Assembly: GCA_030527235.1 (NCBI GenBank)
Contig: JAUNBL010000019.1
Coordinates: 1-37,772, forward strand
Length of the DNA stretch: 37,772 nt
Reading direction: 5' to 3'
From: Clostridia bacterium
GTDB lineage: Bacteria > Bacillota > Clostridia > UMGS1883
Part shown: positions 14,608 through 37,772 of the stretch, in pieces
Layout: every line of letters begins with the position of its first letter
Numbering within the stretch: position 1 is the stretch's first letter
Position numbers and translations under genes: made by a program
Notes under the pieces: generated by a model
What the model saw: only the letters and a program-made list of their open reading frames with translations
What the model was told of the DNA's origin: nothing
The model's database searches: none

Positions 14608-17600
14608 TTATATATTTCCCGAATTGCTCCCGCACAGCGGAAGCATAGATTCTGCACTTTGCCAGAGCATTACCTCAATTGTGCTTGCGCCATCCGTTGG
14701 CAGGCTTGCTGACGGTGCATAGGAGGCGCTTCCTGCGCTTATTTCACATTCCTTATTGATATCAAGTGATATGAGGCGCTTTCCATCCTCGGTATAAGCT
14801 GCAAAAAACAATGTGCCTGTTGTTGCACTCGGCGCTTTAATCGTCGCTGTTTGTGCAGATACGTCTACATTGGTGATGCTCAGCATCGATTTTTTAAATA
14901 CTATATTGCTGACTTCCGCCCTATCATCATATCTATCTACTGTAGAGTCCTTTGTATATGAAAAAGTTACAGTGTGTGAACCCTCGCTTATATCATAAGC
15001 TACGCTATCTGTCACATTGTTTCCGGAGGCTTCTAATAAGGTAGTGCCGTCAAGAATAACATAAAACTCATCAAAGCTGTGTTCACTTGAAACAAGATAA
15101 TCAAAGGATACCTCATATGTTTCTCCTGCAGGAACAACGACGCTGAAGTTCAAGCTTGTGCTATCGGAACCGGCTATCTTCTTTGAGCGGAACTTCTCCG
15201 GCGTTCCTGCTGTTGTATCTGCCGGAACTAAGCTCCAATCACCTGAAATGGCTGTAATTATGCCGTCGTCATCTGTCAGCACCTGAAGCTCTTTAACATA
15301 ATCCGATATTAAAACGAATTTTGCATAAAATACCTTGTCCCCCGTATCGGTTGCCGATATTTCCGTAACTGCCGAAGTCGTAAACTCAGCGTCCTCAAAC
15401 CAGCCCTCAAATACATAGTTGTCTTTTGTTGGGGCTACGGGAAGCGAAGCGCCCTCTCCCTCAATATAGCTTGTAATATTGTCGCCGTTCAAAACACCAC
15501 CGTTCAGTTGAAGCGTTACGTTATAAACTCTCAGAAACTTAGCGTAATATGTTTTATCTCCTGTTGTACCTATCGGCAAGCTTGTTACTGCGCTGCCAGA
15601 GAATTCGCCGTTTTCATACCAGCCTCTGAATACATAATTATCTAAGGTAACATCAGTCGGTAAAGTTATAGCTTCAGCCGGTGTGTAGCTTGTCAAATTT
15701 CCACTGTTTATTGTACCGCCGTTTGTTTCAAATGTTATGGAGTATGAACTGTAATCAAGCTGAATCTGTGTTGCATCATCTGCTTTTACAACAAATGTGA
15801 AATTCCCGTCAGCATCTCTGCTGATTACTGTTCCGTCATATGTAACACTGTCAAATTTATTACCTTCAAATGTCAGAGAAGTACCGGCTTTTGCGTAATA
15901 GACAGTGTCAAGCTTATTCTCTTGATAAGCAATGAGCATATAGACAGACGGATTTGCTTCGGTTGCCGGAATGATATTTGATGAAGTTACCGACCAGAAT
16001 CCGCTGTGTTCGGCAGTTGTGTTTTCGGTATTCAAAAGGTATGCCATTTGTAGAATTGATGGAATGCTTCCTGCACAATTGGTCACTGTTCCTGCCTGTG
16101 TCCCTACAACAGAACTGTCAGAATAGCAGTTAACAACCGTTCCTATTAAGCTTGATGTATCGTTCCTGTTATCGCCTACCAAATGACCCGCTCTGCCGTA
16201 TGCTGTAACAGTATTGCCAAATTCAGCGCAATTTCGGATTATTCCGCCATAGTTGCAGCCTGCAACAGCGCCGCCGATACGGTTTGACGCATCGACTCTT
16301 GAATTGTAAACAAAGCAATTTTCAATCAGACCGCCGATTAAAACCTGACCGCACAAAGCGCCGAAACGTCCGTCGATGTTCGGATAGGTATAAGCTGCGT
16401 TTTCTATTGTAAGATTTTTAATAGTTCCGCTCAGAGTCCCGACAAGTCCCGCTGTTACATTTGTCGCGCTTGCTGTTATTGTGAAATTCGATATTTTGTG
16501 GTATCCTCCGTCTATCACACCAAAGAATCCGCGCTCAGGTATTGTTGCGCTGTCATATATTAGGGTAGAGCTGGGCTGAATCGGGTCGATGGACTCGCCG
16601 CCAAGGTCAATATCTGACGTCAGTACAGCCTCCATAGTCGCATTCTGCGATGCCGCAGCTATAAAAGCCAACAGCTCTTCTTTTGTTGAAATATACACAA
16701 CAGGCGAAAATTCAGCTGCAACAGTAACTGAGCTGTCAACCATAGTAAATTCGCATGAATTACTTCCTGTTCTCTTCGTGTCAAGCTCGGCGCCTCCAGA
16801 ATCGGTAACCGTAAGCTTTGAACAATAATATCCCTCAGCAGGAATTGTATTTACTGTTATCGTAGCGCCGCCGGTCGCATAATCGTCGCTCAAAACTACA
16901 GAACCGTTTTCTGCCGGGCTTACAGCAACACCGTATAAAGCGGAAAATACAGGCGGCTCCGGAGTATATGTAGTCCCGGTCGTTACCACTCTGCCGAGAT
17001 ATACAATTCTTCCATCGCTGTCAGACCAGGTTCCTCTTTCTGTTTTACTAAATTCCCATATAAGCTTGTTGGCTCCTGTTCCTTCAAATTCAACCTTCTC
17101 CGACAGGATGGATTCATACGGATTTGCTGTCTCCGTGAAATTTCTTTCTATTTTCAGCACGTTGTTTATATAGAAACGTAAAATAAATTTTCCGTAGTTT
17201 GTGAAGCCCTGATTGACCGCCCAGTCAAACGCCGCTATGCATGGACCTGTCGCTGTAGATTCTGCCGTTGCGGTTATAGTTTTCGATGATGTGGAGACCG
17301 AGAATGTTGCATACAAGCCGTCCGTTCTACCGTAGTAGCCATTTTCGCTCTGTGATAAATCTGACATTTCAGTTGCGGAAACGTGCTCCATAAAATCCTC
17401 GGTGTCAATAATAGATGCAGAAACAATCACGTCGCCGCTCTCTGTACCGCTTAACTGTGCATATCCATCTGCCGGAGTTGATTCAAATGTTATCTTATCG
17501 CCGAGACTGATTTCGTCTCCATTTGAGAGGACGGTGTCACCTCTCCTTGCAACAAATGTTCCGTTTTCAACCGACTCAGGCAAAACTATGGTAAAGCTTT

Positions 17601-17698
17601 GCGTGCCTTCGGCGAAAACAATGCCGGAGACGCCGGATAAAATCACGCCGATTGCCAAAACAGTGCTAATCAGTTTTTTTTTTGGTTTTTCTTTTCAT
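14608..17698 (-). CDS. large secreted repeat protein, signal peptide out of frame by one base at A10
   Basis: Extracellular protein of about 1030 residues. From the N-terminus: signal peptide, a beta-rich region, a bacterial repeat-like segment (VSPAENGSVVLSDD), a GLUG-like beta-helix (FGVIDGGYHKISNFTI, then VAGCNYGGIIRNC), two InlB/Flg_new B-repeats (ETNGGTINSGN and QLNGGVLNGDN, each ending GDK.(Y/F)YAKF), a jelly-roll-like module, and a C-terminal module ending near VMLWQSAESMLPLCG. No LPXTG, SLH or dockerin is visible. The open frame starts at TTG 17658 in mid signal peptide. The natural start is ATG 17698 behind AAGGGAG, giving MKRKTKKK then LISTVLAIGV; that needs nine A residues, but ten are present (17674-17683 as T10 on the plus strand), so a stop follows. 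Phase variation, slippage or a sequence error are open. Likely adhesin or glycan-binding role. Confidence 0.8.
17674..17683 (-). repeat. A10 homopolymer in the signal-peptide codons
   Basis: Ten consecutive A on the coding (minus) strand, 15 bases after the ATG of the secreted repeat protein. One base fewer restores a complete signal peptide in frame with the remaining 1000 codons. Tracts of this length slip during replication and also during transcription, so the length may vary among cells or messages. Confidence 0.85.
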
Positions 17699-17752
17699 GT
17701 TTTTTCTCCCTTCAAAATTTGGGTAGTGCCAAACAGACACCCCCGCTTTTTA

Positions 17753-17771
17753 TTTTAACTATTCGTTAAAA
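17753..17771. promoter_or_regulatory. operator-like palindrome upstream of the secreted-protein gene
   Basis: TTTTAACTATTCGTTAAAA is a perfect 7-bp inverted repeat with a 5-base centre, in the 127-base gap between the GGDEF gene and the secreted-protein gene. It is AT-rich with no U-run and so resembles a dimeric repressor site more than a terminator. I found no convincing sigma-A promoter in the gap, so the gene may be read through from galT-galK or use another sigma factor. Confidence 0.35.
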
Positions 17772-17825
17772 CCATTGTTTTTGCGCTGTCTAAAATATAA
17801 TTGCGCGGAGATGATAAAATCGTTT

Positions 17826-19418
17826 TCAGCCGTTATTTTTGCGAAGTTTTTTTGTTTGCTTGTTGTCATACATATTTTCGTCCGCGCACTGCATAAGCCG
17901 AATTGTATTCCCCGTCTTTGAAAAAAGTGCATATCCTATTGAAAACTCAATTTTATATGGTGTTTTATGAATTTGAACAGCGGCTTGAAACTCGCTGTTT
18001 ATACTTGCAATCTTTTCCTCAACATCAAACACACAGCTGCACGGCATGAGAATCATAAATTCGTCTCCGCCCAACCTTGCGGCAAATTCGCCTTCGACAA
18101 TACAAGTTTTAAGCTTTTTCGCGGTCTGTGAAAGCAGTTCGTCACCGGCGTGGTGTCCATAAAAATCGTTCAGATGCTTAAAATCATCAAGATCAATAAA
18201 CAGTGCGGCAAAATCAGCATTGTTTTCATAATAGTTTTTCTCAAATTTGCCTAAAACATCAAAGAAAAACCTTCGGTTGGGAAGTGCTGTTAAAATGTCA
18301 TAGTTGGCCATGTAGTGATAATCTTCGGCGAGCTCTTTGTATTTCTTTTGCTCCGCTTCAAGCGCTTTTTGGACCTGTTTCTGTTTTGTGACATCTTGAC
18401 ACGACAAAATTATGCACACAAAGTTGCAATTCTTATCTGTAATAACAGACGAAGATAAAAGTACATCCTTAATTTCGCCATCTTTGCAAACCACTTGAGA
18501 CTCACTGTTCAATAAATTGTCGGTCGATAAAATCTTGTTAAAATCATCGCGCTGCAAAATGAAACTACTGATATTTGCACCGATGAGTTCACGGTCTTGG
18601 TGTGTCAACAAATTTTGAGCCGCGCGATTGCATTTCAAAACTTCGCCGAGCTCGTCGATAACAATGAGTGGATTATTGCTTGCTTTGAAAATGTCATCGG
18701 AGGAAATTACCAAATTAATATTAAAAACATCATAGTGGCAAACAATACCGAAATACCCCACGCCGAAAAGCGCAGTTCCAACACTCGCCAGCGCCGGCAA
18801 AATCGGATATGTAAGCGGTAAAACGATGTCAGCAGTAACGCCGAATAAAATGGTTATCATATCTAAGATAATGAACCCGATTGCAAGCTCACGTTTTAAC
18901 TTGTGTTTTACTGCCTTTGCCCATTTATAGAGCATGTAGAACGCAGCGCCGAAATAACTTATGAGATAAATGACATACACCCAAAGCCAAAAGGATGTAA
19001 CGGAATTCTGGTACGTCCAGCCCCACCCGTTCGCCGCAGGAATTATTTTTTGCGCCAAAGAAGTGGTTTCTCCGAAAAAGTTTCGGCAAATCAGCACAAC
19101 CATGGGCAGGAAAAACAAACACAACTTCCACCAGCAGCGGTAAAATTTATCTTTGTCAGTCAGCGCCAAAAAATAGAACGCGGTAATAGCGACAAATCCG
19201 CACCACCCAAATGACGCTAACTTGTGCCAAAAAAACGCCTCCTCGGCAGTCGGCGCCGCAAAAAAGAATGAATAACAAAATGACCACCATGCTAAACTGC
19301 TCAATACTGCGCATGCTGATATGTTCAGAACAGTCTTTCTTTCAACGGTCACAATCCAACCGGCGCCGATAAAAAAGGCCGTATATATAATGATAGAAAT
19401 AACGGACAAAACAGTCAT
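17826..19418 (-). CDS. 7TM-PAS-GGDEF diguanylate cyclase
   Basis: Membrane-bound c-di-GMP synthase of 530 residues. The first 210 residues form seven hydrophobic helices of the histidine-kinase N-terminal 7TM type, followed by a PAS domain (about 220-340, with VIDELGEVLKCNRAAQNLL), a short coiled coil (KQKQVQKALEAEQKKYKELAEDY broken in two here for brevity) and a GGDEF domain with intact RLGGDEF. The inhibitory RxxD site before the active site is not seen (the stretch reads VEGEFAAR), so product feedback may be missing. There is no EAL or HD-GYP partner. The ATG at 19418 follows GGAG at 9 bases; an ATG at 19433 has no ribosome site. It lies 37 bases after galK and 127 before the secreted protein. 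Confidence 0.9.
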   Translation of the reverse strand: MTVLSVISIIIYTAFFIGAGWIVTVERKTVLNISACAVLSSLAWWSFCYSFFFAAPTAEEAFFWHKLASFGWCGFVAITAFYFLALTDKDKFYRCWWKLCLFFLPMVVLICRNFFGETTSLAQKIIPAANGWGWTYQNSVTSFWLWVYVIYLISYFGAAFYMLYKWAKAVKHKLKRELAIGFIILDMITILFGVTADIVLPLTYPILPALASVGTALFGVGYFGIVCHYDVFNINLVISSDDIFKASNNPLIVIDELGEVLKCNRAAQNLLTHQDRELIGANISSFILQRDDFNKILSTDNLLNSESQVVCKDGEIKDVLLSSSVITDKNCNFVCIILSCQDVTKQKQVQKALEAEQKKYKELAEDYHYMANYDILTALPNRRFFFDVLGKFEKNYYENNADFAALFIDLDDFKHLNDFYGHHAGDELLSQTAKKLKTCIVEGEFAARLGGDEFMILMPCSCVFDVEEKIASINSEFQAAVQIHKTPYKIEFSIGYALFSKTGNTIRLMQCADENMYDNKQTKKLRKNNG

Positions 19419-19455
19419 ATTATAAATCTCCATACAACCATGACAAATATCGCAG

Positions 19456-34534: not shown

Positions 34535-37500
34535 TCAATCTGCCGCCGTAATGGAATTTTCGTACCATACAAGCAGTTTGGCGCCGAGATTTGGTATAAG
34601 CTCTGCATCAAAGCTTTTAATCTCGTTTTTTTCAAATGTTTCAGTTCGCTTATCAACGGCTTGCAAAATATTTTCTCCATCGTGAGAGGCAATATAGATG
34701 TCATAGACCGCTTCAGCGGCACTTAAAATATTAAAGAAAAGTTTGTCGCTCGTTTTTGCCGTGTAAACGACCTTCGCATCCCCCGCCGTCGCTTCAAAGT
34801 TCCATACATTAAAAAGTCCTGCGGCAACGCCGTTTCCTCCCCTTACGCATACTTTAGATATATCGCTTACCTCCGGCGCATCGCTTCTAAAGGCAAAATC
34901 TTCTGCGAGAAGAGTGGTTATGCCGCCTTCATCACTCACAAAGACAGAATATTTCTTGTTGGGCACATCGAGCGCAACAGTTATAATGTAGGTTTTATTT
35001 GTTGTATAATAAATCGTATTTGTCGCACCGAATGCACTGCCGTTTCTTGCATCCATAGTGCCATCGGGTTTTATTCTGATAACCATGCTGAAATTGGTAA
35101 ACGCATTGGGATTAACATCGGAGCCTGCAAAGCCTACCAGCCCATCACTTAGCGCGTTCGCCGAAAGAGAATAGCTGAAAATCGCTCTTTTTTCATATTT
35201 GCCAATGTTGTAGGTGGTATAGTTGTTTGAGGATGCCCATGCATCGTCAGTATCGGCAACACCCGCCTCGTGCGCTGCCCAGACTATCGAACGGCCGCCT
35301 CTGTTAAGGCGTGCGTAATTCGGTATTGCAGTCAGCTCAATTTCTTCAAGACCTGTCGATGTTTTTTTCTTTGCCTTACCTTGAATTAGTGTAACGCCCT
35401 CCAATACAGAGGCATCATAGCGCGTGGTGAGTGTTGAATCATCATCAATGACAACGCTCCCGATGCTGTAGACGCTGTTATCTACATCCTCTAAATTATA
35501 TACTATAGGTCCGCGCGCAAGCGCCACTCTCCCATTATCCGCCTCAATGCGCGGGTCTGCATAAATGCGCTTTATCTCCATAGGGAAATCGAGCGAGATA
35601 TAGTCTCCGGCGCTCCAAATGCGTTTAATCACCACATACCCATTTTCGGTGGGATACGTCTCTGCCGCACCGTTCACATCAACTGTGTAAATATCACTGC
35701 TGTGTGAAAAGGTATACAGACTTGTCTCTTCAAATTTCGGTACACGAAGCTTTATTGTAAAATCCTTGTCAGCGGACGGGTTTACGATTATTTTTGTATT
35801 TGCTCTCCATGGGTAGTCTGTTTGCTGAACTATTTCAACATCGGTGCCGGCTATACCCGAAAGCTTCACCGTGCTTCCGGCAAGCATGTTTATGTAAAGC
35901 GTATCCTCGCCCTCCGTTGAATACATCAACTGCGGGAGTGAAAGTATTGTTCGGGGGATGTTGCCCACGCAGCAAGGACAAACGTGCCACGAATACCGAC
36001 TCCAATTTGCATCAAGTTCGTTTTGATAGTAAAAACTCTCTCCTTCCAAGGAAACCGCACCGAGAACTACATTATACATTTGACGCTCAAGATTATCTAT
36101 GTAGCGTGAGTCATGAAAGGCATTATTCATTCTATTGTTCCAAAATACCATTCCGCAGCTTGCACATGACTCGTTATAAGACTTGTTCGGAAGTACATAA
36201 TTGTCAGTGAATCCCTCATTTGAAGCAATTGAGCCTATACCGCCGGTAATATACATTTTGTGATTAACAGTGCTGTCCCAAAGTCGTTTGACCGCATTGT
36301 AATATATATTGTTTTTCTTTTCCATCGCAATATCGGTCATTGCGGAATAAAGATAGGTTGCTCTTACAGCATGGCCGACAGCTTCGCTCTGCTCGGTTGC
36401 GGAAAGATGACTTTGATCGTATTCGCTGCCGTTGCCGCGCGCATCGCAGAGGAACTGCGCAAGCTCAATATATTTATCGCCCTTTTGCGAGCCTTCTCTT
36501 TCGTTCACAAATCTTCCCAGACGCACAAGCGCCATCTCCATTCCCTCGTGACCATCGTACCAAAACTTTTTGGGCGGCGCGCCTATTGTGCTCACCCAAA
36601 GATCTGCGCATTTAACAGCGGCATTATACAGGCGCGTGTCGTTAAAATCGGTTAAGGCATAGTGTGCCAGTGCCGCTTCGATAAAATAACCCATCACATA
36701 GCCTTCATGGTCTGTTTTCACGCTCCAACGCTGTTTATTGTTAAGTGTGTAATTTGTATTAAGGTAGCCGTCGCTCTCTTGTGCCGACAAAACTATCGGT
36801 ATCCATCTTTCAAGCTCTCTTTTGATGTTCACCTGCGCAGCCGTAATTTCAGCGTCACCGTCAGCATCAATGGTAAGGGCAAGACACATCGCTTCAATGG
36901 TATTGTGCGTGTAGGCGTTAGCCCACGGGTCTTGATTTGGTACACTATATTGACCGCCGGCAAGTTTTTGACCTGCATTTTCAAACGCAGCTATGCCGTA
37001 TTCCAGGGTATTAAGCTCATCGATACAATGCGGAATCCATTTTGTTATCATTCTTTTTACTTGACTTTTCCAAAACGCACTTTGTATCTTCACATCGTTC
37101 GTATATGCATTTTTTAGTGGAGTGAGAAAAGCGAGTTCGTTTTTACCCATCATATTAAAAACCTCTGTTTCCGTAAGCGCGCAGTCAAAAATCTGCGCGC
37201 TTGTTACAGTCCCGTTAAAATTTCTGCCTTGACCAAACGGGTCTGCGCCAATTATTACAGGCGAATCTGTAAGCGTGAGAGGCTCACGCTCGCGCTGTGC
37301 CGCCAATTCACCGTTTATATATATTTTTTGCATATGTCCGTCCCAAGTGTTGATTATAAAATAGTCGTTATCCTTAGGATAAGATGGTGCAGTTTCTCCA
37401 TCGTTGGCATAAAAGCCATACTCGAAAGAGTTTGCCGCACTGTTGTAATAGATGAAGTTTCCGCTGTTTTTGCTTGCGCTGCCCCAGCCAATAATTCCGT

Positions 37501-37723
37501 TTCCGTAATCGTCCTTGGCATTTGCACCCACATTCACCTTTACGGCAATGGTGAAGGGTGCATTTCCGACTATGCCTATGTTTGTTTCGGATTCAACCGT
37601 ACTGCTGCCCGAGAATACATATGGGCCGCCAGTCCAAATCGGTTCTGCCGCGCTCGCCTTTATGCCATATAGAAATATAACTCCGAAAATGGTACAGAAA
37701 ATGGCAAACAAAGTTACTTTCAT
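34535..37723 (-). CDS. secreted GH127 (DUF1680) glycosidase with LamG-like modules
   Basis: Extracellular enzyme of about 1062 residues, likely a beta-L-arabinofuranosidase. Signal peptide MKVTLFAIFCTIFGVIFL ending ASAA; a LamG/concanavalin-like domain (about 25-190); the GH127 (alpha/alpha)6 barrel and beta modules (about 195-800); a second sugar-binding-like sandwich (about 820-965); and a C-terminal module ending KLLVWYENSITAAD. The Zn-thiolate active site of GH127 is complete: the acid/base Glu in SNEGFTDNY, Glu and Cys of YNESCASCG (about 36155-36185), and the Cys triplet of HVCPCCVGN (about 35955-35985), the middle Cys being the expected nucleophile. ATG 37723 fits the signal peptide; ATG 37735 directly follows AAAGGA and is an alternative. 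It is transcribed alone and fits release of arabinose from plant or glycoprotein glycans. Confidence 0.85.
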   Translation of the reverse strand: MKVTLFAIFCTIFGVIFLYGIKASAAEPIWTGGPYVFSGSSTVESETNIGIVGNAPFTIAVKVNVGANAKDDYGNGIIGWGSASKNSGNFIYYNSAANSFEYGFYANDGETAPSYPKDNDYFIINTWDGHMQKIYINGELAAQREREPLTLTDSPVIIGADPFGQGRNFNGTVTSAQIFDCALTETEVFNMMGKNELAFLTPLKNAYTNDVKIQSAFWKSQVKRMITKWIPHCIDELNTLEYGIAAFENAGQKLAGGQYSVPNQDPWANAYTHNTIEAMCLALTIDADGDAEITAAQVNIKRELERWIPIVLSAQESDGYLNTNYTLNNKQRWSVKTDHEGYVMGYFIEAALAHYALTDFNDTRLYNAAVKCADLWVSTIGAPPKKFWYDGHEGMEMALVRLGRFVNEREGSQKGDKYIELAQFLCDARGNGSEYDQSHLSATEQSEAVGHAVRATYLYSAMTDIAMEKKNNIYYNAVKRLWDSTVNHKMYITGGIGSIASNEGFTDNYVLPNKSYNESCASCGMVFWNNRMNNAFHDSRYIDNLERQMYNVVLGAVSLEGESFYYQNELDANWSRYSWHVCPCCVGNIPRTILSLPQLMYSTEGEDTLYINMLAGSTVKLSGIAGTDVEIVQQTDYPWRANTKIIVNPSADKDFTIKLRVPKFEETSLYTFSHSSDIYTVDVNGAAETYPTENGYVVIKRIWSAGDYISLDFPMEIKRIYADPRIEADNGRVALARGPIVYNLEDVDNSVYSIGSVVIDDDSTLTTRYDASVLEGVTLIQGKAKKKTSTGLEEIELTAIPNYARLNRGGRSIVWAAHEAGVADTDDAWASSNNYTTYNIGKYEKRAIFSYSLSANALSDGLVGFAGSDVNPNAFTNFSMVIRIKPDGTMDARNGSAFGATNTIYYTTNKTYIITVALDVPNKKYSVFVSDEGGITTLLAEDFAFRSDAPEVSDISKVCVRGGNGVAAGLFNVWNFEATAGDAKVVYTAKTSDKLFFNILSAAEAVYDIYIASHDGENILQAVDKRTETFEKNEIKSFDAELIPNLGAKLLVWYENSITAAD

Positions 37724-37772
37724 TTTTATGACCATTCCTTTCCGCTGCGCTACAAGGCACAAAAGGGATATG

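Follow-up and report, generated by a model that had tools for sequence, protein, structure and literature searches.

The window analysed here, a 37,772-nucleotide stretch of one Clostridia assembly, contains a single homopolymer of at least nine bases: ten T on the forward strand (A10 on the reverse strand) at positions 17674–17683. On the reverse strand, a ribosome-binding site, AAGGGAG (17706–17712), stands 7 nt 5′ of a start codon (17696–17698; ATG 17698), and translation of the assembled sequence from this ATG gives the short frame MKRKTKKKTD, which ends at a TAG stop (17668–17666; whole frame 17666–17698). The tract, which lies in the lysine-rich n-region of a putative signal peptide, is one of four runs of ten or more A in the 2.09 Mb assembly. 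One base out of register, a long frame opens at the base directly 3′ of the tract and stays open for 1021 codons (17673–14608, reverse strand). It begins with the hydrophobic core of a signal peptide, LISTVLAIGVILSGVSGIVFA, and a VFA cleavage site, both read by eye, and continues for about 1,000 residues as a predicted secreted protein (P0001; 1021 residues, zero internal stops). The computed chance of such an open frame in random sequence of the same composition is about 4e-28, and the remaining two frames over the same stretch contain 68 and 74 stops. Since the long frame is intact over all 1021 codons, the break is either recent or not real.

When tract lengths of 7–13 were tried, lengths 9 and 12 joined ATG 17698 to the long frame and lengths 7, 8, 10, 11 and 13 failed; A11 leads to an immediate stop, and the out-of-frame neighbouring lengths terminate within two codons. 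These results bear out the preliminary description, which held that A10 puts the signal peptide exactly one base off: the tract, ATG 17698, AAGGGAG and the short frame were all confirmed. It had further proposed that nine A would restore the frame, and length 9 indeed enters the signal peptide and the 1021-codon frame; its third claim, a stop two codons past MKRKTKKK with ten A, agrees with the assembled reading of MKRKTKKKTD followed by TAG.

A sequence scan upstream of and within the tract found no ATG, GTG or TTG that could serve the long frame, which is closed upstream by a TGA overlapping the start codon (A-TGA). No standard start could therefore bypass the tract except the first TTG of the long frame (17656–17658, reverse strand; TTG 17658). 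The long protein is highly unlikely to be made from this TTG, or from the rare starts CTG 17673 or ATT 17670, with the short frame arising by accident. A mechanical reading does begin the long open reading frame at TTG 17658, but that codon has no ribosome site upstream and would forfeit the basic n-region, whereas the sole good ribosome site belongs to ATG 17698, and the upstream portion of the long frame is shut by the same TGA.

The predicted exported protein and its surroundings

By matches above curated cut-offs, P0001 is assigned to the InlB B-repeat (Listeria–Bacteroides repeat) proteins. Pfam reports two Flg_new/List_Bact_rpt stretches together with Flg_new_2, a divergent InlB B-repeat; PF09479 scores 93.8 bits against a cut-off of 27, and the NCBIfam model TIGR02543 scores 60.9 bits against 20.95. 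The two repeats cover approximately residues 643–787 (15313–15747, reverse strand; best PF09479 match at residues 717–785), and homologous stretches from other genomes align at about residues 641–790. N-terminal to the repeats, residues 330–540 or so look like a β-helix, as suggested by the repeat pattern GGLIENCFV ... GGIIRNCAEF, and residues 342–538 share 46% identity with a 2081-codon frame of a family member. Neither Pfam nor NCBIfam detected a wall anchor domain, and Pfam detected no internalin leucine-rich repeats. The signal peptide seen by eye and the InlB-type repeats would fit a surface or secreted product, but an anchor domain was not found.

The C-terminal 75 residues of P0001 recur in further proteins of the same genome, including a secreted protein on another contig (G000:C36). 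This common C-terminal domain (P0001 residues 941–1015; G000:C36:318-500), with a motif resembling VMLW-S--SM-P, occurs in several proteins of the genome and the family and carries no Pfam name. Searches of 60 related genomes, GTDB-based contigs, viral contigs and plasmids returned no full-length relative or orthologue of P0001, the matches being to repeats or partial domains, and no solved structure matched it in sequence.

Directly upstream, on the same strand as the gene, lies a gene for a membrane PAS–GGDEF diguanylate cyclase (17826–19433). Rfam gave no match in the leader, and no c-di-GMP riboswitch was found with it between the cyclase and the gene. The leader folds no better than shuffled sequences, and a scan for promoters and terminators returned results close to chance. 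An inverted repeat in the leader, TTTTAAC-N5-GTTAAAA (17752–17772), is a candidate operator; its core, TTTAACN5GTTAAA, has no second occurrence in the assembly. On the forward strand, a G+C-rich hairpin followed by a T-rich stretch (17721–17756) resembles a terminator for a transcript antisense to the gene start; on the reverse strand the same hairpin falls shortly 5′ of the ribosome site. Close to the window end is a large secreted GH127-type protein (34535–37762), whose best NCBIfam match, aceric acid hydrolase, is well under the cut-off.

Length and frame of poly-A tracts

The presence of an A10 tract is itself no more than chance, and the surprise lies in the frame only, one base off in an otherwise long and intact gene. 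Shuffles of the window predict 4.73 A9 matches, against 2 observed, which overlap. Within the window 67% of lysine codons are AAA, giving a probability of about 0.30 that three consecutive lysines are encoded as AAA three times; read in this way, the tract is the product of three AAA lysine codons in the predicted basic n-region. Pattern searches of the 2.09 Mb assembly, with a few stretches inspected, counted 139 A8, 14 A9 and 4 A10+ runs, a steep fall that agrees with a published report that coding regions avoid runs of nine (PMC1088944). The excess of long homopolymers expected of a contingency genome was thus absent, the window falling below its shuffle expectation and A9 and A10+ runs being few genome-wide; such an excess is a supporting feature of phase variation and is not strictly needed for a single locus. 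Nothing in the genome suggests that homopolymers are kept as switches.

Two of the eight coding A9/A10 tracts in this genome are off by one base: the tract studied here (L004) and L015. The other six (L003, L006, L009, L011, L012 and L016) are in frame, L003 being another A10, and 30 sampled A8 loci yielded zero convincing frame breaks. The apparent one-base break in L015 (also L128; G000:C93:17891-17901) occurs at an A9 in a gene with a good ribosome site whose protein begins MKDKNFDYGDY. About 245–250 open codons follow the tract; the protein has no signal peptide, is apparently non-secreted and belongs to no known family. No homologues of L015 were found in 60 relatives, and the off-frame call is one of reading frame alone. 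The other genes of the window include no obvious broken gene, and their Pfam matches are near full length. Together with the in-frame A10 of L003, these whole genes argue against a general homopolymer problem in the assembly.

Across 391 Clostridia genomes, the frame was kept at about 24 start-proximal A10+ tracts followed by long frames, with one clear exception; this count covers the fetched start-proximal A10+ cases, with four further matches left aside. The exception (L077; G056:C3:129901-129959) is a DUF2383/ferritin-like gene with a start-proximal A10 one base off and likewise an A-TGA geometry at its start. The present genome has more off-frame tracts (2 of 8, compared with 1 of about 30), but the excess does not reach significance (Fisher p = 0.11). 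Several other candidates were rejected on re-examination. L056/L092, an A10 tract with a signal peptide, is in frame; L059 (A9, genome G009) lies, by eye, inside a longer frame, and its ATG is false; L082 is served by a separate ribosome site and ATG located 3′ of the tract; and L084 offers a second, in-frame ATG.

Readings of the off-frame tract

The A10 is probably a single, non-programmed slip, either an assembly error or a recent mutation, and the gene is otherwise intact. The locus would then be an unremarkable gene whose product is large and Sec-exported, with the in-frame state as the functional one. Its run of AAA lysine codons would encode the basic n-region of the signal peptide and so create a homopolymer of the length class in which slippage becomes frequent, and the tenth A would stem from an error in the reads or in the assembly consensus, or from a recent replication slippage in the sampled population, in neither case a slip under selection. 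A cell truly carrying A10 would make the 10-residue peptide and little or none of the exported protein. In favour of such a slip, it is the longest tract class of this genome alone that shows frame breaks, as the A8 and A9/A10 counts indicate. Against it, the assembly shows no general weakness in homopolymers, the excess over other Clostridia genomes falls short of significance and the second case, L015, is known from its reading frame alone. A literature search on homopolymer errors in metagenome assemblies returned nothing useful.

In an evolved phase-variation system, replication slippage in a selected A run would toggle the exported protein on at in-frame lengths and off at all others; this reading is considered unlikely. 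The anatomy resembles known cases: the length of a coding 5′ poly-A tract decides which frame is read, the out-of-frame state ends at once, and the product is predicted to be secreted and carries InlB-type repeats. A clean switch of the gene would follow from replication slippage, as it does in Mycoplasma hominis vaa, Listeria inlA, Bacillus subtilis swrA and the pilins of Bifidobacterium breve (PMC524362, PMC2831843, PMC9187656). However, long tracts are not in excess in the genome, lysine codons suffice to explain the tract length, start-proximal A10+ tracts across Clostridia are nearly always in frame, and no orthologue of P0001 was found in the collections searched. The other broken tracts, L015 and the G056 DUF2383 gene, do not look like surface-protein genes, which speaks for a generic slip over a surface-specific switch. 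The tract counts, the second off-by-one gene and the survey of the class lean away from a switch, which is no more likely than an error in the assembly. The fuller claim, that selection maintains a genuine poly-A switch in the signal peptide of this InlB-repeat protein, in a clostridial lineage not yet cultured, and that both neighbouring frames give a clean off state, is quite unlikely to hold.

Three described switches offer the closest comparisons. In Listeria monocytogenes inlA, a one-base change in a 5′ poly-A tract likewise reduces a large exported protein to a product of about ten residues (an 8-residue product is reported); its tract, in contrast, is A6/A7, and for it strain data exist and mutation rates have been measured (PMC2831843), whereas the present one is an A10 from one assembly, and P0001 is without internalin leucine-rich repeats or a wall anchor by Pfam. 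M. hominis vaa also has poly-A at the 5′ end of a surface protein gene with neighbouring lengths out of frame, being on at 8 A and off at 7 or 9; its variation and the link to adherence have been demonstrated (PMC524362), whereas the present gene is known from one assembly. In the B. breve sortase-pilus switch, a homopolymer lies between the Sec-signal start and the main pilin frame and the assembled genome is in the off state, as here, but the tract is of G, the product is a sortase pilus and the variation was measured by maximum depth sequencing (PMC9187656).

A real and stable A10 could also be read through by RNA polymerase slippage, programmed or tolerated, so that a minority of transcripts in a mixed mRNA pool would make the exported protein; this is very unlikely. 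The run exceeds eight A and the frame beyond it is intact after a one-base shift. Nine-A runs are prone to slippage in many bacteria, with Thermus dnaX as the model (PMC1088944), and endosymbiont genes with off-by-one A runs that are otherwise intact are thought to be rescued by transcriptional slippage (PMC3017870). Rescue here, however, requires the loss of one A or the gain of two, and a +1 product terminates immediately. In homopolymer transcripts measured in Escherichia coli and Buchnera, single insertions dominate and deletions are rare (PMC5574713), so the dominant direction of slippage does not restore the frame; ribosomal −1 slippage on the run reads AAC TGA and stops too. Rescue of a true A10 would thus be weak. 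The poly-A frameshifts of Blochmannia and Buchnera resemble the present case in that an otherwise intact gene is put off by one at a single A run, but they occur in very AT-rich genomes whose coding A9+ tracts number over 100 (PMC3017870, PMC1088944), whereas the window is 44% GC and the present genome has about 8 such tracts.

If the tract truly varies, an uncultured Clostridia lineage would join the bacteria that switch exported proteins through a 5′ homopolymer, a known kind of system. If it does not, a lone out-of-frame tract in one assembly should not count as a switch, and lysine-rich signal peptides encoded by AAA codons would be spots of chance frame loss in assemblies and genomes.
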